IMG/VR virus record: IMGVR_UViG_3300049893_001839
Location: 1 to 40,250 of that record
Reading direction: 5' to 3' (one strand)
DNA: 40,250 bases
DNA from: a virus
Positions 12,278 to 38,333 of the stretch are shown in pieces. Position 1 is the stretch's first letter. Every line of letters begins with the position of its first letter. Position numbers and translations under genes: made by a program. The notes below the pieces were generated by a model that was not told where the DNA came from, made no database searches, and saw only the letters and a list, made by a program, of their open reading frames with translations.

Positions 12278-15200
12278 ATGCAAGACTTCAATCTTCAAAA
12301 CCTCACCAGAACTGGGCTAAGTTTGCTTAGCCTTGCAGCACGCAAGGCTAAGCCTTTTACTGCATATAGAGATGAAAATAGTGCTGAACTAGATACGCTT
12401 ACTCCCGATTCTAGGGCCGAAAGAGATAGCGCTTCTGTTTTAGATATATACGCTAAGCAGGCTAAAGACCCAGAGACTGATCCATATAAACGATTAAAAG
12501 ACTATACAACAGCAGATGGCATTCTAACTAATCTACAGAACTCTACAGATACGCGTAATCGTAGAAGGCTCCAGAATCTCCTAGAAGGCCGTAGAAAGTC
12601 TATAAAGCTACACGAGATCACCCCGCTGGCTGAAGCAGTATTTAAAGCCTTTGAGGCGGGTCTCAGTGGGGAACCTGATGCGGATGAGTTTAACTATAGG
12701 CTTTATCAGAGAACCTTTGTTACTAGTGCTCTAGTAGAACAATTAGATACTTCAGTAAAAAGCTACATTGGAAGAACTAAAGGGGAAGGCGTAGCTCTAC
12801 CAGATCTAGCAGCAGGTATTATCCACAGCCATCACGGAGCTGCGTACGCAACAGTTTTGCGTAATGCTAGAAGCAGTCTAGATATTGGTATGTTCCAGTT
12901 TGAACATACAACAATGGTGGCCGAGCTTTATATGGCCATGCAGCAGCTTAAGGAGCAAAAAGGCTCCTTAAGCGTTCGTTTAAATGTTCCTGGAGCAATT
13001 ACGCTACAAAACGCTCTAACTATGGGCGCCTTAAGAAAATGGCTAGCTACAGACCTTAAAGGCCTAAAGGCCGACATTGGATATGATATTAGATCCGAGA
13101 GAAAGGGCATAACTGCGGGTGCAGAAGACCTAATCCCTAAGATCGCTCACGAAAAGTTTGTGTTGGCCAACAAGGCCAGCGATAAACTAGAGGAGATGAT
13201 GCTAATCTTGGGTTCTTCTAACTTTACTAGAGGCGCCCTGGGGGTCTTTGAAAGAGATGGCATGTATGCAAATGCCATGGGTAATATCGAAGTAGATTAT
13301 TTAGCTACTTACAAAGGTCTAGTAGAGAAATCAGACATCCTGGGAGAATCCAGGATGGAGAGAGCTACCTTTGATAAGCTAATGCGGGAAGCCCGTGCAG
13401 CTGCCTCTTTTATCTCTGCTAAGGGACCGAAGCTGAGAACTAGCTTCGGTAGAGATAATAGCTTTATTATGTCTGGTGACGTTTACATGCGTAGAATGTT
13501 ATCAGATATGAAGACGGCTTCTGAGGCCATGCGTGCTGGTGGGGCTATATCCAAGGCTACATTTATTATTAACGTACTACAGACTAAGTCTGAGTCTTGG
13601 AAACAGTTACATAGACAGATTCATGAATTTGCCAAAGCGGGTGGCCAGGTAGACTTATTACTCCAGGGTCTTGAGGACTATAACGAAGCTACCGGAGAAA
13701 CTATTAGAGGCTTTGGTTTAGATCTTCCTAGGCTGCAGGAAAAACTTGGCCTTAAATTAGATGCTGCAACTAAAGGCAGCATTTATATAGCAGATTCTGT
13801 AGGTAGATACGTTCACGGTAAGGCTTACTTCTTAGATACCCCAAATGGCCTAATTGGCTATATAGGCTCCGCTAACCAATCTGTAAGAGCTGTTGGTAGC
13901 TTATATGACGAAGAAGAACCGGATAACTTAGAATTAGGTATCAGAGTAACTTCTAACCAAGACAGGGGCCTTAAGTATCAATTAGATTTATTAAGAGCAG
14001 CGCACGGCGTGGACGTTAAACTAGCTCCTGCTACTTTAGAAAATCTAAAGAGAACCGAGGGAAGACCTGATATTTGGTCTACTCCAATACAAGCTAGATA
14101 CGCTATCTCAGAGCAGTCCCACAGAGCTTTAGCTTCTTATACGCAACAACTTCGTAATGAAGGCCTTATGTTAGAGATGATGGCCAGAAGAGAATATAGG
14201 GATGCGTCTGATAAGTTTGATATTAATCCAGACGTCCAAAGAGAAGCTATAGGCTTTAAACTAGGATTTAAATATGGCAGCGCCAAAATAGGTCACTTAG
14301 TTGGGTTTGAGGCGTTTGCACACGAAACTTCTGCGCCCCTATTAAATGGTAAAGAGAGACATTCTCTTTACCTTCCGCATTTCCATAAGATCATTAATGG
14401 TGCTATGGGTTTCTATAGAGACGAAGATGGAAAGCTGAAACAGAAATGGATAACTCCAGAAGAAATAATCGCTAGTGCCCTACAAGCAACCCATAACTTT
14501 GTACAGAAGAAACTTATTGGCGTAGAAATGAGACAAAGAGCTATTACAGCGCTTCGCGCTAGTAATAGGAGAGTTACCGAAGCTGCAATAGATCAATATA
14601 TAGAAAGTCGTATCACTGGTAACTTTACTCAGTACGGGCTAAAAGAAAAGGCCCGGACGTTCTTAATGAACGCCCTAGGTTCTTTTGACTCTGGTGAACT
14701 GGGTAAGAGATTTTATAATTCTAAAGATTATCAATATCTAGCCTATGAACTAACAGATCCAGAAAAGCCATTAAATATCTTAGAGAATCCAGCAGACATC
14801 GCTTTTAGAAATGGTCCTCTTAAAACTGGCGAGTTTAATTTTATGCGGCCAGGCGACGGCTATATGCAGCGTAGAAACCGCAGGAACCCCGTTACAGGAG
14901 AGCCCTTAGTACAAGTAGGCAAGACATATGTTGGAGAGGCCTTTAAGAGTCTCCCAATCGTTTCTACGAGCAAGGATAAAGATGGAGAAGAGATCTATCA
15001 ATTCTTAATTCCATTTAGCAAGGCTTTCCAGCTAACTCAACGTTTTGGTAACGTGATGAGTTCTAGAGTCTGGGAATATGCAAAACTAGTAGAGGGCAAA
15101 CTAGAACCCATTCCTATGGATGTCCTACCATTCCAATCAGAAATAGGTGCGGAAACCCTAAAATTAATGAAAGAGAGGGATAAGGCTCGTACTTCGATTG

Positions 15201-18200
15201 ATAAAGTTCTAAGGGGATATAAACAAAATACTTTAGTCTATATCGGCCCTAATCTAATTGGAGATGTAGGCTATGCGAATCCAGACTTCTTCCAAGATTT
15301 ATATCTATATAGAACTCAATTACAAACCAAGGTTCTATCTAAGAGACATCTATCAGAGGCGCAAGAATACGATGCTAAAGAGGGCGTAGTTAAAGAAGCT
15401 GGAGGTATTGGTGGTATTATGCAGCGGCTTAAAACGCTGCAGGGAAAACTGCTTCATGGAAGCAGACTAGGCATAGCCTTAGCTCAAGGCATGAGTGTTT
15501 TTGGTATTACCACCAATGAAGCTAGCATAGACAACAAAGCTCTTAAAGAAGGTCGCTATAAAGGCGGCAGAATTACTTTAAACAATGTAAGTATCTCTCC
15601 AGAAGTTGTTGATAAACACAAACTAAGAGTAGAGCTAGAGTATGGAATAGGACGTAGAGTACAAACAGGCGACCGTTCTACTGTTGCTATTAAAGCACCC
15701 TATCTTTTTGTTAAGTCTGACTGGTTCTCTAATCTATTCCATAAGATGTTTATGAATCCCGCGCAAGGTGGAGCTAAGGGCTACTTAAGTCAAATGCTCC
15801 AAATTGAGGGGGCTTCTGACGTAGGTCTCGTTGTAACTAGTGCTCATATAAAAACTGGCGATACCATGATGCAAACTGGTGCTTATCTGATTACACAGAT
15901 GGGTGCTAAAGGTTATCTAGATAAAGTCATGGGTATGGGCAGTTTTGATATTAAACAAGCCCTAGAAAACATCCATAACAAGATGAGAAATAGGGATGGT
16001 GGTGAACCCAAGAAAGGCACCTATCTAAGAGAAGTATTCGATGTCTTAAAGTCTACGGATAAACTAAGCGCTCTACAACGCTTAATGTCTGAAGTAGATT
16101 CTAGTATTATCTCTTACGATTTTACTGAAGGCCCTCAAGACTATCGCCGCAGGGGCAGAGTACTAAAAAGCTCAGACCATAAACATCAAGCTGCGGCGGC
16201 AATGGCCTGGTTCTTACACGAACAGTTCTTCACGTCTGAGGCTTTAAAAAATATTCAACTGCATAAGTCTGGTTTCTTTGATAAGCCAATGCTTGCAGGC
16301 AGCGAGGCCATGAGAAAGGCCTCGCTGATGATGGCAGGTAAGGATGAGTTTACTCAGGACGACTTTAGTTATGTAGTTCCTGTAGTGCCCTTTACTGGGA
16401 TAGCTACAAACTCTGTTCCGTTATCTTCTAGACCTAATACACAAATCCTAACTTATCTAAACATTGGGGAGGGTGCTGCAACGCTCTACGAGGCTCTACA
16501 TCCGGCCTTAAATGAGAAGCAGATGTCTTTCCTCCATATGGCGTCTCTCTTTACTTATGGGCACGCTGCAATGCCTCTAGGGCCTGGTAATAGGCGCTAT
16601 ATGGATAATGTTCTACCGGGTCAGATTAGTGCCGGTACCGTAGCTGCATCTGCGACGCATGCTACTTTAGAAGATACGGTTACCTTAACTAGAGCAGCAA
16701 GAAATTTAACTAGTGCTCTATACAGTGGCATCGCAGAAGGTAAGTCTTACGAAGACTTGCTAAAGCAAATAGATAAAGCCCATGAAGACATCAGTCTTAT
16801 AGAAGCTAAAAAAGATAAACTAAAGAATCTAGTTAAAAACACTAAAGGCAAGACTGAAGCTGGCCAATCTAAAACACTCGCTACAAAAGCAATTATATCC
16901 GCGTTAAAACAAGCTGATGTGGGAGCCCTTAGAATAATTGTTCCTAAGCTCGAGTTTGAACACGCAGGGTTTAGACATACAGCTAAGCTAAAAGGCTTCC
17001 ACGATATTTTAATGCCGGATGCCGAAGCTTTAGAACAGTTATCCAAGATAGGTGGAGCCGAAGCGGCCTCTGAGATTGACCATTATATAGAACTCTTGCA
17101 TCTTATGGGACAAGAAACCCGTACGATGCAAAAGATTATGGGGTACTATAATACCCCATCAGAAGATGGGTTTAAATTCTACGTTGGTCCTAGAGAGTAC
17201 TCCCAGTTCAATCGTCTTACAGATTTTGCTAATAAAATAAACAAATTCCAAAGTAAGATAATGGGGTCGGATTTCCTCAAGCACTTCTACGGCAACATGG
17301 TCGTAGAAGGCAACGTTGGTACCGTTGTCTCAAGTCCTGCAGTTCCTCTCGGTACCTCTGTTTATGGCAAGCTTCCATATAACCAAGCTCTAGCTACTAA
17401 TACTAGGGCAGTAATGAAAGATCTAACTTATACGAGAGCGGTCGACGGTAGAAAGAGAGTTAATAAACTAGCTTTCCAGACAGCTATGAATAATCTTGGC
17501 CTCGGGAATGAGTTTGCCAATTTAATTAAAAAGGCTAATAGTCTGTCTGATATTAAGGATGCTCCACAGCTTAGTGTTCTAAAATATGACAACATAGATT
17601 TCTCTAGAAAATCTAATATTATAAGGGGCCACGATGAACTCTTTAGAGTTCATCTAACTAGAGATGAAACTTCTTTAATGAAGGAACAAAGCTATAGTCA
17701 GGTCATAGATAAACTACAAAAGAGAAATATCGATGTAACTGGATTAGATTTGGGCACTAGAGACGCAGTACATAGACACGAACTACTAGTTAAATCTGGC
17801 GTAGCTATTATTGATAAGGCCCTAGGAACTTACGGAGACTTCTTTAAGAACCAGGCTAAAGGTTCTGCTAGCCTGCAAGGCGCCGAAGGTATTGTAATTG
17901 AACATAGGCGGCAACAAGCTTATGCTAAGCTCTCTTCTTGGATACAAGAAGGCGTTAAAGCTAAGAACTTTAGTTATAAAGTAGCCCAGCTAGCTAGTGA
18001 GTTAGTTTTATCTAACCCAGAGAGAATGGTTACTTATGGTAACAGAGCTGGTGCTCCTCTTGGAACGTCTCACTTACTAAATATTATTCTGAGACCAGAA
18101 GAAGTAAATCTAATTAATAAGCACCTAGGGTTAGACGTTCCTGAGTTCTCTGTGGAGCATTCAGAAGCCATGATTGGCTTAAACCCAACAGGCATGGTAG

Positions 18201-20836
18201 AGGCCCTGGGCGACTTTGACGGTGACCAGGTTACCTTGCAAAATGTTTCTAGACTTAATTTACTTTGGTCCCAGAAGACTAGCCTAGAACGTGAACGTAA
18301 AGTAGCCATCACTCAAGGTAAGAGCTTTGACGAGGCTAAGCTAAACGATATAAACAAGAGTCTAGAGGTTATTCAAGGGTTTCTAGCAGATAACCAAAAC
18401 GGTAAGAATCTAGTTCATCATGCGGCTAGATATACCGGTAATATGGGGTTAGTAGAGGCCTTCGCCCGCGCTGGCGCAGATAGCGCCGCGCGGGATAAAG
18501 TTTTAGCACAGTCAGTAGCGGCTATAAGCCAGGCCAGAGATCAATTCGAGCAGGTTAGTGACTATCTTTCAGAATACGTAAAAGAGTTTGATCTACAGGT
18601 TAAAGGCTACGAGGAGCAGTCTGGTAAGTCATTTATGCAAATGACCGACAGAGAGGGGCTCCATAAGAAAGCAGCAGAGGCTGCGACAAAACAAAGAGTA
18701 GCCAAACTAGAGCAAAGTATCACGGATCCGCTTTCTAATATGAAGCACGATGATATAGAGTTTCTATATCGCTATATCGGTTTTGCTGGTACTGAAGTAA
18801 TAGGCAAAGCATTTAACGCTACTTATGATCTATTGCTAAATACTCAGTTTATTGCTGGTAAGCACGAAGGCAGTAACAAAGAGGCAGAGAATCGTCTCTT
18901 CGGCAGAAAAGCAATGGACTACGAGAGAGGCCTATCACAGATGGATAGAATCTCTGGATTTATGCAAAGCATAAATCAGATGGCTAGAGACTCTCTAAAA
19001 CCCAAAGCATTCGAAGCTAAACTATTTGGTAGACTTAGGGATAAGTATAGAGGAGAGGGTGCCAGAGCTGCTGCAAAGGAAGTAGCTGGGGCTGAAACTA
19101 TTTCTTATTTAACAGCTATTCTAGAGGGCTCTACAGAAGTTAAGGACCTAATAGACGGCGGAACGAGAAGAAAGGAAACCCCCGGCTTCCTAGAGCTATC
19201 TAAGACCTTTAAAGAGTTTCACGCCAAGGCTGCCATAGAGCAGGCTAGATTCCAAATAGAAACTACGTACACTACTAAGTTTGCTCTTAGTGGTCTTATA
19301 GAAGATGGCTTATTAATTGGTGAAGAAGTTATAAAGAATATAGCTAGCGAGGCTGGAGTAAGTATTAGTTCTTATGAAGAATTAAAACAAAACCATGATT
19401 TAAGGGATCAGTTTATTACTGGCCTATTTAAGAAGAATAAAAAAGCAGAAAGGGTATTACTAGATAAACTATTAATCGAACATAATTATAACTCTATCGG
19501 TCTGATGTTCTCCTCTCAAAGCAGTGTTAAGGGTTTTATGACTAAGAGAGATGGAGAACATGACCTTAAGGGCTTGGTAGAACTATTTAACTTTGGGGCA
19601 GAAAGAGCGCAATACGAAAGAGATGTTAAACAAAGCATAGAGCACGGTTCTACTATAATTCCGTCTAAGCCTGATGTATCTATAAGTAGAGAAGCTAAAG
19701 TTGCTACGTTACTAAGCATAACAGCAAGACCACATACTCAATTCTCTGATCTAGAAGGCATGACTATGATTAGAGATATCTTAGAAAACGAAGATCTGCA
19801 AAGCAAGTCCATGGAGCAGCGCCAAGCCTTCTTTGATGATTTAAATAGGATGGATAAGTTTGGTACTAAAATAGGAACTCGATTCCAAGAACTCTGGGAA
19901 CAGGGCAACGGCACTATTCTTACTAAGGATCAAATGGCTCAAACAGAAGAACAAAGAATGAAGCAAACTATAGGGGATATAAGAAGAGGTGCAGTTAGAC
20001 ATAGAGAAATAGCAGAGTGGACTGCAGCCTCTGAGCGCCTTGCAGAGCAGGGCCTTAGTGGCGACCAGATCAAAACCATTCTGGACAGAAAAACAGGTGC
20101 CTCTGAAGCGATGCTGGACCTTCTCAGCACTAGCCCTGCTGCGGGTATTACCCTAGAATCGGGTCCCATTGATAAGTTCTTGGCTAAAGGAGAGAAGACC
20201 TTATCTAAATTTGTTAACTTAGAATCTGAGTCTGGCAGAGCCAGTTTCGGTGTAGTAACTAACTTATTTGGGGGTATGTTAGGGGCGGGTATTGCTAATG
20301 CAATAATGGGGCATAAGAGTACCGGTGGTGAATTAGTCCAAGCAGGCGTAGTTAGCTCTTTTATGATGAACCCTACTATGGCTGCTAAGATGAATGCCTC
20401 TGGAGACTCTGAGACGCTGCTTAAATCTACCGCTAGTTTATTAGCCGGTGGGGTATTAGGCCAGGCTGCTGAAGTGCTAACCTCTAGAGTTATTCCTAAA
20501 GCACATAAAGGCACAGCTGCAGTAGCAGGCTTCTTAGCTTCTACTGTTCTAGGTGCCTTTGGCTCTGTTATTACTGAGAGCTTCTTTGAAGCGAAGAAGA
20601 AAGCTCAGAGAGCTATGGCAGGAGAACTGGGAGAAGCTGCTGTTAATGCAATAGAGGCCTTATTTTTACCAGAACGAGATATCAGTGATGATCCTACACA
20701 GACGGCAGAATACAGAGATTTAGAGGGTAATGATATAAATGTAGTATCAGACGATGGTTCTGAGGTTTCTAATTGGTTAGATGAAAATGGTATGGGCGTA
20801 ATAAGAGGAGATTTAACTAATGAATTCACTGTTTAA
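12278..20836 (+). CDS. giant single-chain RNA polymerase with N-terminal phospholipase-D domain (probably virion-packaged)
   Basis: 2852 residues. About residues 190-600 carry two HKD-type motifs of the phospholipase D superfamily: HEK at about 291 with GSSNF after it, and HGKAYFLD at about 512 with GSAN after it. Residues 1979-1983 are DFDGD, the magnesium-binding signature of the double-psi beta-barrel of multisubunit RNA polymerases, within MVEALGDFDGDQVTLQN. GAKG near 1208 may belong to the second barrel (uncertain). The C-terminal 200 residues have hydrophobic glycine-zipper stretches (GGMLGAGIANAIMG, AAVAGFLASTVLGAFGSVIT). Giant one-chain polymerases of crAss-like phages are packaged in the virion. 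Placement beside the virion genes suggests the same here. Leu CTA and Arg AGA are frequent. Confidence 0.82.
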   Translation: MQDFNLQNLTRTGLSLLSLAARKAKPFTAYRDENSAELDTLTPDSRAERDSASVLDIYAKQAKDPETDPYKRLKDYTTADGILTNLQNSTDTRNRRRLQNLLEGRRKSIKLHEITPLAEAVFKAFEAGLSGEPDADEFNYRLYQRTFVTSALVEQLDTSVKSYIGRTKGEGVALPDLAAGIIHSHHGAAYATVLRNARSSLDIGMFQFEHTTMVAELYMAMQQLKEQKGSLSVRLNVPGAITLQNALTMGALRKWLATDLKGLKADIGYDIRSERKGITAGAEDLIPKIAHEKFVLANKASDKLEEMMLILGSSNFTRGALGVFERDGMYANAMGNIEVDYLATYKGLVEKSDILGESRMERATFDKLMREARAAASFISAKGPKLRTSFGRDNSFIMSGDVYMRRMLSDMKTASEAMRAGGAISKATFIINVLQTKSESWKQLHRQIHEFAKAGGQVDLLLQGLEDYNEATGETIRGFGLDLPRLQEKLGLKLDAATKGSIYIADSVGRYVHGKAYFLDTPNGLIGYIGSANQSVRAVGSLYDEEEPDNLELGIRVTSNQDRGLKYQLDLLRAAHGVDVKLAPATLENLKRTEGRPDIWSTPIQARYAISEQSHRALASYTQQLRNEGLMLEMMARREYRDASDKFDINPDVQREAIGFKLGFKYGSAKIGHLVGFEAFAHETSAPLLNGKERHSLYLPHFHKIINGAMGFYRDEDGKLKQKWITPEEIIASALQATHNFVQKKLIGVEMRQRAITALRASNRRVTEAAIDQYIESRITGNFTQYGLKEKARTFLMNALGSFDSGELGKRFYNSKDYQYLAYELTDPEKPLNILENPADIAFRNGPLKTGEFNFMRPGDGYMQRRNRRNPVTGEPLVQVGKTYVGEAFKSLPIVSTSKDKDGEEIYQFLIPFSKAFQLTQRFGNVMSSRVWEYAKLVEGKLEPIPMDVLPFQSEIGAETLKLMKERDKARTSIDKVLRGYKQNTLVYIGPNLIGDVGYANPDFFQDLYLYRTQLQTKVLSKRHLSEAQEYDAKEGVVKEAGGIGGIMQRLKTLQGKLLHGSRLGIALAQGMSVFGITTNEASIDNKALKEGRYKGGRITLNNVSISPEVVDKHKLRVELEYGIGRRVQTGDRSTVAIKAPYLFVKSDWFSNLFHKMFMNPAQGGAKGYLSQMLQIEGASDVGLVVTSAHIKTGDTMMQTGAYLITQMGAKGYLDKVMGMGSFDIKQALENIHNKMRNRDGGEPKKGTYLREVFDVLKSTDKLSALQRLMSEVDSSIISYDFTEGPQDYRRRGRVLKSSDHKHQAAAAMAWFLHEQFFTSEALKNIQLHKSGFFDKPMLAGSEAMRKASLMMAGKDEFTQDDFSYVVPVVPFTGIATNSVPLSSRPNTQILTYLNIGEGAATLYEALHPALNEKQMSFLHMASLFTYGHAAMPLGPGNRRYMDNVLPGQISAGTVAASATHATLEDTVTLTRAARNLTSALYSGIAEGKSYEDLLKQIDKAHEDISLIEAKKDKLKNLVKNTKGKTEAGQSKTLATKAIISALKQADVGALRIIVPKLEFEHAGFRHTAKLKGFHDILMPDAEALEQLSKIGGAEAASEIDHYIELLHLMGQETRTMQKIMGYYNTPSEDGFKFYVGPREYSQFNRLTDFANKINKFQSKIMGSDFLKHFYGNMVVEGNVGTVVSSPAVPLGTSVYGKLPYNQALATNTRAVMKDLTYTRAVDGRKRVNKLAFQTAMNNLGLGNEFANLIKKANSLSDIKDAPQLSVLKYDNIDFSRKSNIIRGHDELFRVHLTRDETSLMKEQSYSQVIDKLQKRNIDVTGLDLGTRDAVHRHELLVKSGVAIIDKALGTYGDFFKNQAKGSASLQGAEGIVIEHRRQQAYAKLSSWIQEGVKAKNFSYKVAQLASELVLSNPERMVTYGNRAGAPLGTSHLLNIILRPEEVNLINKHLGLDVPEFSVEHSEAMIGLNPTGMVEALGDFDGDQVTLQNVSRLNLLWSQKTSLERERKVAITQGKSFDEAKLNDINKSLEVIQGFLADNQNGKNLVHHAARYTGNMGLVEAFARAGADSAARDKVLAQSVAAISQARDQFEQVSDYLSEYVKEFDLQVKGYEEQSGKSFMQMTDREGLHKKAAEAATKQRVAKLEQSITDPLSNMKHDDIEFLYRYIGFAGTEVIGKAFNATYDLLLNTQFIAGKHEGSNKEAENRLFGRKAMDYERGLSQMDRISGFMQSINQMARDSLKPKAFEAKLFGRLRDKYRGEGARAAAKEVAGAETISYLTAILEGSTEVKDLIDGGTRRKETPGFLELSKTFKEFHAKAAIEQARFQIETTYTTKFALSGLIEDGLLIGEEVIKNIASEAGVSISSYEELKQNHDLRDQFITGLFKKNKKAERVLLDKLLIEHNYNSIGLMFSSQSSVKGFMTKRDGEHDLKGLVELFNFGAERAQYERDVKQSIEHGSTIIPSKPDVSISREAKVATLLSITARPHTQFSDLEGMTMIRDILENEDLQSKSMEQRQAFFDDLNRMDKFGTKIGTRFQELWEQGNGTILTKDQMAQTEEQRMKQTIGDIRRGAVRHREIAEWTAASERLAEQGLSGDQIKTILDRKTGASEAMLDLLSTSPAAGITLESGPIDKFLAKGEKTLSKFVNLESESGRASFGVVTNLFGGMLGAGIANAIMGHKSTGGELVQAGVVSSFMMNPTMAAKMNASGDSETLLKSTASLLAGGVLGQAAEVLTSRVIPKAHKGTAAVAGFLASTVLGAFGSVITESFFEAKKKAQRAMAGELGEAAVNAIEALFLPERDISDDPTQTAEYRDLEGNDINVVSDDGSEVSNWLDENGMGVIRGDLTNEFTV

Positions 20837-32786: not shown

Positions 32787-33389
32787 ATGCATAGCATTAT
32801 CCGCTTAGGAGGAGTTCTACTCCTCCTTTTCTTTCTTTCTCGTTACAAACCTTTAGCAGACCAAGCACTGGTCGCCAAGCCAATAACAGGATTTGAGGCT
32901 CTAAGAGCTTCTGATCAATTAGTAGAACTCAAAGCAACTGTTTTGTATGTAAAATTTAACGAGCTGGGTTCTAAGCTCATTACTTTGCAAACTGCTGATG
33001 GCCAACAACCAATTGCGTTGATACAACCCTCGCAAGACATAATAACCCCGAACATCGGGGATTACGTCTCCATTACTGGGAAGTTGCTTGGTAGGGGACT
33101 GCTCTCAGTAGAGAGTATAAAGCCTCTACGCAGGCCTATCCTTGGTGGAGCAGGCGACACAGTCGCCTATCCACAGATTGTGGGTAAGCGAGTAACATTG
33201 CGTATTACGCAGTGGAAGCCAGAACAATTCAAGAGTAGGAGAGGTTTCTATCATGCTGCCTTTCGTACTATGGCTGGCGCTGAACTTACTGGGACATATG
33301 AGGGACACACAAGTGTCCCTCAAATGGTGGAATACATCTCCGGCTATCTCCTTGATTCTGGAACGTTCTACATCGAGAGGCTCCAGTGA
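32787..33389 (+). CDS. membrane-anchored OB-fold-like protein
   Basis: 200 residues. Residues 5-20 (IIRLGGVLLLLFFL) are a signal anchor or signal peptide with no lipobox. About residues 45-110 (LVELKATVLYVKFNELGSKL, IALIQPSQDIITPNIGDYVS, ITGKLLGRGLLSVESIK) have the five-strand OB pattern with a GDYVSITGKL strand. The C-terminal 80 residues are beta-rich. The ATG directly follows the Csx15-like stop. The stop overlaps the next membrane gene (TGATG), so the pair probably work together at the membrane. Confidence 0.65.
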   Translation: MHSIIRLGGVLLLLFFLSRYKPLADQALVAKPITGFEALRASDQLVELKATVLYVKFNELGSKLITLQTADGQQPIALIQPSQDIITPNIGDYVSITGKLLGRGLLSVESIKPLRRPILGGAGDTVAYPQIVGKRVTLRITQWKPEQFKSRRGFYHAAFRTMAGAELTGTYEGHTSVPQMVEYISGYLLDSGTFYIERLQ

Positions 33390-34540
33390 TGCTGCTTGGA
33401 TGTTTGCTTGGGATAATCTTCTCCTTATTAAGCCTACTCCCTGGCTTACATGGACCGACGTTGTTGCTGCTGATCGCAGCAACAACGGAGCTCTCACACG
33501 TAGCCTTAACATGCACAATGGTGGGCTGTACAGCAGTACTAGAAATCCTGAGAAAGATCAAAGAACCAGTAACAAGAGAAAGCTTGGCGTTCGCAGACGT
33601 TGCTACTAAGTTGGCGTACCAAGGGTACACCCATGCCGTAATACGCATTCACACTCAAGCAGTCTGGGCAGGCTTTTCTTTTGTACTTCTTCTAGGACTA
33701 GCGTTGTTGGGAACAGCGCTACTCGGACACAATGTCCTAGAAGCCGTTGTGGGGCTCATAAAGCCCTTTATGGCAGCTATCTTAGCTGCCATTACGCTGA
33801 CGATCGTCCTACGATCGTCTAAGCCCTTCAGAACGCTTCTAGTGGTTGCTTTAGCAACCACTCTAGGCTACTTCACCTTTAATGGTCCACTAAAGAATAG
33901 TTCGTGGGTAATGACCCCGCTGCTAAGTGGATTATTCATGGTAGGCAATGCAATTGCACTTATAAAGGTTAGAAAACCTTTAGTCGTGCCGGAGGAAAAA
34001 GAAAACCAATGGGAAGTGAACTCAGAGACCGAAATGAAGGGAGCGATCGTTGGGACGATTGCAGGTCTCCTTGCAGGCCTAGGAACAAGCTCTCTGGTAG
34101 CTTTAATGGCGCCCAGAGACGAAGAGGACTATCTGGCTGTGCAGAGCGCAGCAGAAGCAGCGAACAGCATGTTCGCAATCCTTGGCTTTGTCCTCATTGG
34201 TAGCACGCGCAGCGGCGCTGTAGCCGCAATGGCATCTAAAGTAGATGCGCTAAGCCCATACGATGGGCTCATCTTTCTAAGTTTTATACTAGTAGGAATA
34301 CTAGTAGGCCAAGCGTTAGTTTGGAAACTAACGTGGATACCACAGCCAAGATGGCTAATACCAATAAGTCTAATAGGCACAATAGTGGGTGTTTATCACG
34401 CCGCTGGCCTGGTTGGATTATTGGTTATGCTAACTGCTTGGCAGTTAAGTTCTCTAAGCAAAGCACTAAAGGTTCCGAATCAGGCGCTGTTAGCAGCGCT
34501 ATTTGGACCAGTAATGCTGTACTATCTAGGAATCGCTTAG
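33389..34540 (+). CDS. TctA/DUF112-like polytopic membrane protein
   Basis: 383 residues from ATG at 33389 (GTG at 33386 possible). Eight or more hydrophobic helices. Two internal halves each start with a glycine-rich turn: LLSLLPGLHGPTLLLLI near residue 20 and GTIAGLLAGLGTSSLVALM after a charged loop. EAANSMFAILGFVLIGSTRS resembles the tricarboxylate-transporter TctA and archaeal DUF112 families. A membrane transporter is unusual in a phage. It overlaps the OB-fold gene, and may move a metabolite or serve as an envelope device. Confidence 0.6.
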   Translation: MLLGCLLGIIFSLLSLLPGLHGPTLLLLIAATTELSHVALTCTMVGCTAVLEILRKIKEPVTRESLAFADVATKLAYQGYTHAVIRIHTQAVWAGFSFVLLLGLALLGTALLGHNVLEAVVGLIKPFMAAILAAITLTIVLRSSKPFRTLLVVALATTLGYFTFNGPLKNSSWVMTPLLSGLFMVGNAIALIKVRKPLVVPEEKENQWEVNSETEMKGAIVGTIAGLLAGLGTSSLVALMAPRDEEDYLAVQSAAEAANSMFAILGFVLIGSTRSGAVAAMASKVDALSPYDGLIFLSFILVGILVGQALVWKLTWIPQPRWLIPISLIGTIVGVYHAAGLVGLLVMLTAWQLSSLSKALKVPNQALLAALFGPVMLYYLGIA

Positions 34541-36240: not shown

Positions 36241-36326
36241 GCCGGGATGGTGAAATGGCAGACACAGGGGACTTAAAATCCCCCGGTAGCAATACCGTGC
36301 GGGTTCGAGTCCCGCTCCCGGCACCA
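36241..36326 (+). tRNA. tRNA-Leu (anticodon TAA)
   Basis: Acceptor GCCGGGA/TCCCGGC, anticodon stem GGGGA/TCCCC with loop CTTAAAA, long variable arm CGGTA...TACCG, T-loop TTCGAGT, discriminator A and encoded CCA at 36324-36326. All typical of leucine tRNA. Confidence 0.95.
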
Positions 36327-36354: not shown

Positions 36355-36942
36355 ATGAACAACCAAGAAGCTGTCTCCGCCCTGCGCGGAGTCCGGGACA
36401 ACCTTCGTCGACGATTGAGCCAACCAGGCTCCATGGCACTAGCCAATGGATTGCTCACGCAAGCAATCCAACAATTTGGTAACCCAAAACTGATGGCCAA
36501 CTTCGGTGCCTACGCAGGTTTGGTAATGTCCAAGCCAACGTTCAACGTTACGAAGAATGATCCCTGGCTCGGGCCACCTGCCAAGAAGCCCCGAGTTCGT
36601 AAGAACTCCGGTGAACGTGCCTATGGTCGTTACCGAAACAAACTCAATGACTCCAAGAAAGCCGTTCGCCAAAGCCTCGGGGAGTTCAAAGAGAACTCTC
36701 CTGAGTACCACCTCTACAATGCCGTCTGTGGTCTGGAGCCAGTGTTCCAAGGCAACTACAAGATGGGAATCGCTCTGGTCTTTGATCATCTGGCTTCTCT
36801 GAACGGCAACGACCTCGGCTTCTTGGCAGACCAGATCGCGGCCCTAAATCACTTTGTGACTCAAGAAGATAAGCAAGCAACACTTGCCAGTCTTCTGGAG
36901 AACCTGAATATGCATCAACCCGCGGAGCCGATGCCGGCTTAA
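36355..36942 (+). CDS. 195-residue basic helical protein
   Basis: MNNQEAVSALRGVRDNLRRR onward. It is helical at both ends, with a basic middle (KKPRVRKNSGERAYGRYRNK) and a C-terminal helical part (LADQIAALNHFVTQEDKQAT). It lies between tRNA-Leu and the mini tmRNA-like RNA with AAGGAGAG before ATG. The basic middle suggests RNA or DNA binding. No family recognised. A role with the adjacent small RNAs is worth testing. Confidence 0.7.
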   Translation: MNNQEAVSALRGVRDNLRRRLSQPGSMALANGLLTQAIQQFGNPKLMANFGAYAGLVMSKPTFNVTKNDPWLGPPAKKPRVRKNSGERAYGRYRNKLNDSKKAVRQSLGEFKENSPEYHLYNAVCGLEPVFQGNYKMGIALVFDHLASLNGNDLGFLADQIAALNHFVTQEDKQATLASLLENLNMHQPAEPMPA

Positions 36943-36949
36943 CAACCTT

Positions 36950-37022
36950 GGGGCTGTAAGGTGATTCGACAACGGTAGTTTACTATCGTTGGACTCCGGT
37001 TCAATTCCGGACAGCTCCACCA
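36950..37022 (+). ncRNA. tmRNA tRNA-like domain lacking the tag reading frame (mini tmRNA-like RNA)
   Basis: Acceptor GGGGCTG (36950-36956) pairs with CAGCTCC (37012-37018), with G3-U70, and ends in A-CCA. A stemless D-region TAAGGTGATTCGAC (36957-36970) matches the tmRNA D-loop (GGATTCGAC in E. coli). An 8-bp helix AACGGTAG/CTATCGTT with TTTA loop stands where tmRNA has helix P2. GGAC then T-arm TCCGG-TTCAATT-CCGGA follows, as in E. coli tmRNA (GGAC, then T-arm, then CAGCTCCACCA). No anticodon loop of 7 nt can form and no tag frame fits. Probably alanyl-tRNA-synthetase and SmpB substrate. Confidence 0.75.
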
Positions 37023-37174
37023 ATTTACGGCTGGGGCCAATAAGTCCCCAGTCTGGGAGAAGAAAGTATGCGAACCCATCCAGCGGGTCCCAGAAGGCCC
37101 TTCTTTTCTCCTGAGAGTAGTTCAATACCTTGGATAGGATTTCTCCTCCTTCTGCTAGTAATAGGGAGCCTCTA
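37023..37174. other. non-coding stretch with hairpins
   Basis: CTGGGG/CCCCAG (37030-37050) forms a hairpin with a 9-nt loop, and CTGGGA pairs distantly with TCCCAG (37053 to about 37102). No gene seen. Confidence 0.4.
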
Positions 37175-38067: not shown

Positions 38068-38167
38068 GAGACCCCTGGGCGTGGCTATAGCTCAGCCCGG
38101 ATAGAGCAACTGCCTTCTAAGCAGTCGGTCCCTGGTTCAAATCCAGGTAGTCACGCCCAGGGGTCTC
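38068..38167 (+). repeat. 13-bp inverted repeat enclosing tRNA-Arg
   Basis: GAGACCCCTGGGC (38068-38080) pairs perfectly with GCCCAGGGGTCTC (38155-38167), continuing the 7-bp acceptor stem to a 20-bp helix. It pairs the discriminator base and leaves no encoded CCA. Confidence 0.8.
38081..38155 (+). tRNA. tRNA-Arg (anticodon TCT)
   Basis: Acceptor GTGGCTA/TAGTCAC, D-stem GCTC/GAGC, anticodon arm ACTGC-CTTCTAA-GCAGT, T-arm CCTGG-TTCAAAT-CCAGG, discriminator G. No CCA is encoded. It reads AGA, the favoured arginine codon in the portal and giant polymerase genes. Confidence 0.93.
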
Positions 38168-38175
38168 AAAACCAC

Positions 38176-38251
38176 GCCGGCATAGCTCAATAGGAAGAGC
38201 AGCTGTTTTGTAAACAGCAGGTTTCCAGTTCAAGTCTGGATGTCGGCTCCA
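38176..38251 (+). tRNA. tRNA-Thr (anticodon TGT)
   Basis: Acceptor GCCGGCA/TGTCGGC, D-stem GCTC/GAGC, anticodon arm GCTGT-TTTGTAA-ACAGC, T-arm TCCAG-TTCAAGT-CTGGA, discriminator T and encoded CCA. Confidence 0.94.
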
Positions 38252-38258
38252 AAAGCAT

Positions 38259-38333
38259 CCCGACGTTGCATAATGGCTAATGCCCTGTTCTCATAAAACA
38301 GTGAAGGCGGGTCGGAACCGCCCGTCGGGACCA
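38259..38333 (+). tRNA. tRNA with CAT anticodon (Met, or Ile if modified)
   Basis: Acceptor CCCGACG/CGTCGGG, D-stem GCAT/ATGC, anticodon arm CTGTT-CTCATAA-AACAG, T-stem GGCGG/CCGCC, discriminator A, encoded CCA. The T-loop GTCGGAA is atypical. C1 pairs with G72, unlike bacterial initiator tRNA, so it is elongator Met or a lysidine-modified Ile tRNA. Confidence 0.88.

Follow-up and report, generated by a model that had tools for sequence, protein, structure and literature searches.

The window, by which we mean the whole linear viral contig of 40,250 bases (possibly incomplete), carries at positions 36950-37022 of the plus strand a gene for the tRNA-like domain (TLD) of tmRNA without the messenger part. 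In a cmscan search, the Rfam tmRNA model RF00023 gave this stretch 61.4 bits (E = 9e-22 over 40 kb), exceeding its gathering score of 47 and aligning from end to end (model positions 1-374) while skipping 304 of the 374 positions, and R1, a covariance model of TLD-only RNAs, scored it at 53.0 bits (E = 4e-11). The initial annotation had proposed a tmRNA reduced to its tRNA-like domain and suggested a covariance-model check, the outcome of which bears out the proposal; the sequence contains every element it had named: G3-U70, a stemless D region, a closed 8-bp helix capped by a TTTA loop, GGAC and the T arm. The parts of the RNA, as read in the sequence, and its neighbors are listed below, with further evidence in parentheses.

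36950..37022, plus strand: TLD-only tmRNA gene, whole RNA, 73 nt (RF00023, 61.4 bits; R1, 53.0 bits)
36950..36956, plus strand: 5' acceptor strand GGGGCTG, holding G3 of G3-U70 (G3-U70 in 85 of 85 distinct structure-aligned family members)
36957..36970, plus strand: stemless D region TAAGGTGATTCGAC (aligns with the D region of the tmRNA model)
36971..36990, plus strand: P2 helix AACGGTAG-TTTA-CTATCGTT, in place of P2-P12, the pseudoknots and the tag reading frame (P2 pairs 1-7 covary in the family)
36991..36994, plus strand: GGAC linker from P2 to the T arm
36995..37011, plus strand: T arm TCCGG-TTCAATT-CCGGA (T-stem covariation in the family)
37012..37022, plus strand: 3' acceptor strand CAGCTCC with U70, discriminator A73 and encoded CCA
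36241..36326, plus strand: tRNA-Leu(taa), 624 nt upstream of the RNA (ARAGORN, Rfam)
36355..36942, plus strand: 195-aa open reading frame with its stop 8 nt upstream of the RNA (no family match)
37029..37053, plus strand: 8-bp G+C-rich hairpin just 3' of the RNA, without a T run; candidate 3' trailer or processing element
38080..38251, plus strand: tRNA-Arg(tct) and tRNA-Thr(tgt), downstream of the RNA (ARAGORN, Rfam)

The acceptor stem comprises seven pairs, including the G3-U70 that together with A73 makes up the alanylation identity, and the T arm is perfect. The 8-bp P2 helix with its TTTA loop is the sole insert where the messenger part would be: in both the sequence and the RF00023 alignment, the messenger-like domain (resume codon, tag reading frame, stop) is absent and the pseudoknot ring PK1-PK4 is missing. 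ARAGORN, which expects a tag in a tmRNA, calls neither a tRNA nor a tmRNA at 36950-37022. An ordinary tRNA with a D stem and an anticodon arm was ruled out, given that ARAGORN reports no tRNA and that tmRNA wins over tRNA in the Rfam clan competition. A two-piece permuted tmRNA was ruled out as well: the gene order is standard, P2 is closed, no second tmRNA-like or tag-bearing piece was found in the 40-kb record, which is possibly incomplete, and the tmRNA_permuted model reaches only 21.7 bits (cut-off 47), owed to the shared T arm. The initial annotation had itself raised both a separate tag-bearing partner and a decayed tRNA. The first was searched for in this record with the result just given; the second was discarded on the strength of the tmRNA score and because the RNA belongs to a covarying family.

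The folding energy of the window RNA lies below that of all shuffles (z = -3.96; 0 of 200). In its minimum-energy fold, the acceptor and P2 are retained, whereas the D region is paired with the T arm; support for the canonical T arm therefore comes from comparative evidence, which is strong.

The window belongs to a tailed phage: it includes genes for the tail sheath, major head and portal proteins, and its head proteins are about 30% identical to those of Microcystis phage Ma-LMM01. It is a myovirus-type contig distantly related to Ma-LMM01; searches of IMG/VR with three proteins, neighbors of the RNA or the major head protein, recovered no close relatives. None of the 30 records tested, the window among them, encodes SmpB. 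The 195-aa open reading frame and the TLD-only RNA are probably co-transcribed. Several other features of the window stand out. ARAGORN reports a tRNA-Met(cat) at 38259-38333, yet Rfam gives no tRNA match there at E <= 1, and this tRNA is perhaps divergent or decayed. A 384-aa open reading frame (33386-34540) matches the Pfam family TctA of tripartite tricarboxylate transporters (40.4 bits, cut-off 28.9), which is unusual in a phage, and a single 2852-aa open reading frame (12278-20836, plus strand) lies beside the minus-strand head and tail module.

Extent and phage distribution of the TLD-only family

Searching isolate phages with the window RNA by BLAST returned mostly tRNAs or tmRNA T arms, and the top matches, from Klebsiella phages, look like tRNA T-arm matches. 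In IMG/VR, a DNA pattern restricted to the D region, GGAC and the T arm, which left 18-48 bases for the intervening segment and did not include the acceptor, matched 17 stretches; the GGAC linker is not independent evidence because it was included in this pattern. Rescanning 16 loci with Rfam placed 15 above the tmRNA gathering score, each as a short end-to-end match, with locus L017 at 40 bits. A relaxed pattern yielded at least 120 stretches. Pooling the scans and the window gave at least 108 distinct sequences; the two acceptor strands match in 105 of these and fail to match in 3. TLD-only RNAs were found on more than 100 IMG/VR contigs. When the gap was widened to 49-79 bases, only 4 stretches were recovered, indicating that the short TLD-only forms are a distinct size class. 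The GGTTCAA slice of the relaxed pattern comprises 51 stretches and accounts for 24 of 129 sampled matches, from which roughly 270 TLD-only contigs can be extrapolated, given a sampled list that may be biased.

Among 84,980 bacterial and archaeal species genomes, there were 76 raw matches, which are not a count of TLD-only RNAs: most come from ordinary tmRNAs that happen to contain TTCGAC internally, and about 9 represent TLD-only RNAs. One of these lies in a prophage, between the genes for the small and large terminase subunits (locus L213). Set against more than 100 viral sequences, these numbers make the class essentially a phage one. These searches show TLD-only RNAs to be a widespread, strongly conserved and mostly unannotated class of phage genes.

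Some loci have additional features. In two phages, the TLD-only RNA is accompanied by another TLD-like RNA that is more degenerate (L087:5-81 and L087:1317-1392; L017:1061-1142 and L017:2385-2463), and on one viral contig a Pistol ribozyme match (L009:5916-6012; 50.7 bits, cut-off 34.5) lies about 2.2 kb from the TLD-only RNA.

Conservation, covariation and apparent exchange between phages

Before structural alignment, G3-U70 was present in 103 of 105 distinct members, both exceptions being shifted by one indel; after alignment to R1, it was present in all 85 distinct members. In a second batch of 27 loci, 16 of the 19 distinct scorable sequences have G3-U70, and the other three resemble L034, in which a one-base T-stem bulge shifts the register. 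In the R1 alignment, both sides of acceptor pairs 4, 5 and 6 are changed in 23, 45 and 27 sequences, respectively. Pairing over the whole structure reaches 96.4% of cells compared with 64.6% in shuffles, although this alignment was fitted to the model structure, which favors the pairing figures. Covariation is seen in all four helices, with a score of 0.73 against 0.14 in shuffles and at most 0.12 when slid, and an alignment-free count for P2 found 74-98% paired over seven pairs compared with 37-51% when the halves were mixed. In 57 of 81 representatives, P2 bears an A-rich bulge and a mini-hairpin (typically CCG-CAYG-CGG), whereas 10 of 81 have a short simple P2 hairpin, as does the window RNA, whose P2 is short and capped and lacks the mini-hairpin. 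With its covarying P2 helix and conserved alanylation identity, the window RNA fits the R1 family (53.0 bits).

Members of the family are also found in cultured phages: with one member as the query, 41 records gave matches spanning 80% or more of it; all among the matches listed are Streptomyces phages except for Pontimonas phage phiPsal1. In LuckySocke, StarPlatinum and BRock, the TLD-only RNA fills an unannotated gap in the tRNA array, and the GiJojo copy falls within a gene called as a "hypothetical protein". At eight loci (phiPsal1 and seven metagenomic ones), the RNA precedes the major capsid gene by 78-298 nt and shares its strand, and the capsid proteins of these loci are 44-89% identical. 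When Streptomyces phages were compared in 50 pairs, conservation of the TLD-only RNA exceeded that of both flanks in 49. The remaining pair is LuckySocke (L215) and Alone3 (L228), with identical flanks and RNA alleles that are 81% identical, while LuckySocke and GiJojo (L222) have identical TLD-only RNAs within unrelated flanks. Taken together, these two cases suggest that the RNA is exchanged as a cassette.

Several phages combine a TLD-only RNA with a full tmRNA. Five Karimacviruses (StarPlatinum, Wofford, CeilingFan, Birchlyn and MindFlayer) carry both, with a full tmRNA of about 280 nt that in StarPlatinum is annotated and has the predicted tag ANSNVASAYALAA; on contig G012, the TLD-only RNA is accompanied by a tmRNA of 392 nt, and Riptide has a full tmRNA and a degenerate TLD-only RNA, the latter recognized with R1. 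The acceptor stems of the two RNAs differ in StarPlatinum and in G012, so that neither RNA was recently copied from the other. The TLD-only RNAs of the Karimacviruses and Riptide (L216, L224-L227, L229) have degenerate D regions (GGTGTGAC, TTAGAT) and retain G3-U70 in the acceptor.

Possible action on host ribosome rescue

Considered as a class, TLD-only RNAs probably interfere with, or replace, the tagging step of host ribosome rescue. For the window RNA, the simplest and leading explanation, which we consider about as likely as not, is an alanine-charged, SmpB-binding decoy directed at host trans-translation. Under this proposal, the RNA would be transcribed with its neighbors and trimmed by host tRNA-processing enzymes, charged by alanyl-tRNA synthetase (AlaRS) through G3-U70 and A73, and bound by SmpB and EF-Tu as tmRNA is. 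Small and easily made, it would then compete by titrating SmpB, by entering the A site when a ribosome has stalled on non-stop mRNA, or in both ways. With neither a resume codon nor a tag, trans-translation could not finish, and tagging and proteolysis of incomplete host proteins would be lowered during infection.

According to published work, all ssrA sequences have the G3-U70 pair, which is read by AlaRS; except for S1, the partners of tmRNA attach to the TLD; and in crystals an engineered alanyl-TLD with SmpB and EF-Tu binds the stalled ribosome (PMC3968760). A molecule similar to the TLD-only RNA of mycobacteriophage DS6A strongly inhibits E. coli tmRNA whether or not it can be charged, perhaps by titrating SmpB, according to Mao 2009 as summarized in PMC4131195 and PMC11915505. 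Deletion of tmRNA restores phage lambda in a recoded host (PMC6207430), implying that blocking tmRNA can benefit a phage; some phages, conversely, need tmRNA, as lambda-immP22 plates about 10^4-fold less without it (PMC2862035). What the present analysis adds in support of a decoy is the sequence, the fold family, the conserved charging identity and the enrichment in phages. The blocking of host tmRNA put forward in the initial annotation is sound as a proposal and has experimental backing for the similar molecule.

The presence of a TLD-only RNA and a full tmRNA in the same phage complicates this mechanism, as a sink for SmpB would harm the phage's own tmRNA in the Karimacviruses and G012 as well. 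Moreover, the similar molecule inhibits regardless of charging, yet the family strictly preserves its charging identity, which suggests that charging matters beyond titration. Strict charging identity and coexistence with a full phage tmRNA do not easily fit pure titration and leave room for rescue without a tag, the main rival explanation. Here, the charged TLD-SmpB complex would enter stalled ribosomes and take over the nascent chain with one alanine, after which the ribosome would be recycled and the peptidyl-TLD hydrolyzed, with no tagging; such a function has been proposed for tag-less mitochondrial tmRNA and is here transferred to phage infection. A role that requires charging suits the strict G3-U70, and the presence of a full tmRNA in the same phage poses less difficulty for this explanation than for a pure inhibitor. 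Tag-less mitochondrial tmRNAs, furthermore, are kept along with a targeted SmpB and are thought to aid with incomplete mRNAs, as described in PMC11915505. Nonetheless, no mechanism is known by which the ribosome could finish if it lacks a resume codon, lambda-immP22 is not supported by E. coli tmRNA whose resume codon has been changed to a stop (PMC2862035), and the TLD-like molecule is inhibitory in E. coli (PMC4131195), all of which makes this explanation rather unlikely.

A role outside stalled ribosomes, whether to mark polycistronic phage transcripts for processing, to supply a phage enzyme with alanine, or to serve as bait for a nuclease or defense factor of the host, seems improbable to us. 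The eight loci at which the RNA lies 78-298 nt upstream of the major capsid gene are places where a processing signal could matter, and alleles are swapped between phages with unrelated flanks. A processing mark, however, would need neither G3-U70 nor a tmRNA-type D region, no conserved neighboring enzyme was seen, and members occur in tRNA arrays as well as in head operons. Many elements integrate in ssrA and carry pieces of it, but that the RNA is a silent relic, derived from a host tmRNA or from an ssrA attachment site used by a phage, is very hard to credit, given that an attachment site copies only part of the gene rather than both ends joined by a closed P2, that the family covaries and conserves G3-U70, that in 49 of the 50 pairs of cultured phages the TLD shows stronger conservation than the flanking DNA, and that in both dual-gene phages compared (StarPlatinum and G012) it is not a copy of the phage's own tmRNA.

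We tentatively advance a broader hypothesis, while considering it somewhat doubtful: TLD-only RNAs would form a large, distinct phage family with an architecture of its own (P2 of about 7 bp, A-rich bulge, mini-hairpin) that is selected for alanine charging and acts on stalled host ribosomes by neither trans-translation nor simple SmpB titration, for example by rescue without tagging, sometimes alongside the phage's own full tmRNA. If the class acts as the DS6A-like molecule does in E. coli, interference with ribosome rescue would be a common phage strategy that gene callers have missed. Strict G3-U70 conservation and the existence of phages with both forms make blocking, replacement or retuning of trans-translation directly testable in cultured Streptomyces phages.

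Comparison with known tmRNA forms

Tag-less tmRNAs of mitochondria (jakobids and oomycetes; RF02544) and plastids resemble the window RNA in having a tRNA-like domain and no tag reading frame; PMC11915505 records tag-less mitochondrial tmRNAs and plastid tmRNAs of about 65 bp in Mallomonadaceae. These forms, however, are organellar and stem from organelle reduction, and the mitochondrial genes are usually permuted, whereas the window RNA has both ends in standard order within one RNA. Full-length phage tmRNAs (for example in mycobacteriophages Bxz1 and Kumao and in the Streptomyces phages BillNye and StarPlatinum, gene 198 in the latter) have the same tRNA-like ends with G3-U70 but are about 280-410 nt long and contain a tag reading frame, compared with 73 nt for the window RNA. 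The TLD fragments engineered for structures of the TLD-SmpB-EF-Tu-ribosome complex (Neubauer et al. 2012, as cited by PMC3968760) are split from the messenger part, as is the window RNA, but are laboratory constructs rather than a natural gene.

The closest counterpart is the RNA of Mycobacterium phage DS6A, listed as "TLD only" (tmRNA Website tmID 11587; Mao et al. 2009, through PMC4131195 and PMC11915505). As described there, it is likewise phage-borne, with little beyond the TLD and no tag reading frame, and its carrier is a mycobacteriophage rather than a myovirus-type contig distantly akin to Ma-LMM01. The statement in the initial annotation that no natural RNA of this kind had been described was therefore wrong: the kind is already known, and DS6A is the phage example on record. 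The sections consulted of the 2025 tmRNA database paper (PMC11915505) name no phage TLD-only case other than DS6A, and in the literature searched we did not find the breadth of the family, the mini-hairpin, the position near capsid genes, the cassette exchange or the dual-form phages. Thus, DS6A provides the precedent for a phage tmRNA confined to its tRNA-like domain, and what appears new is the scale of the class.
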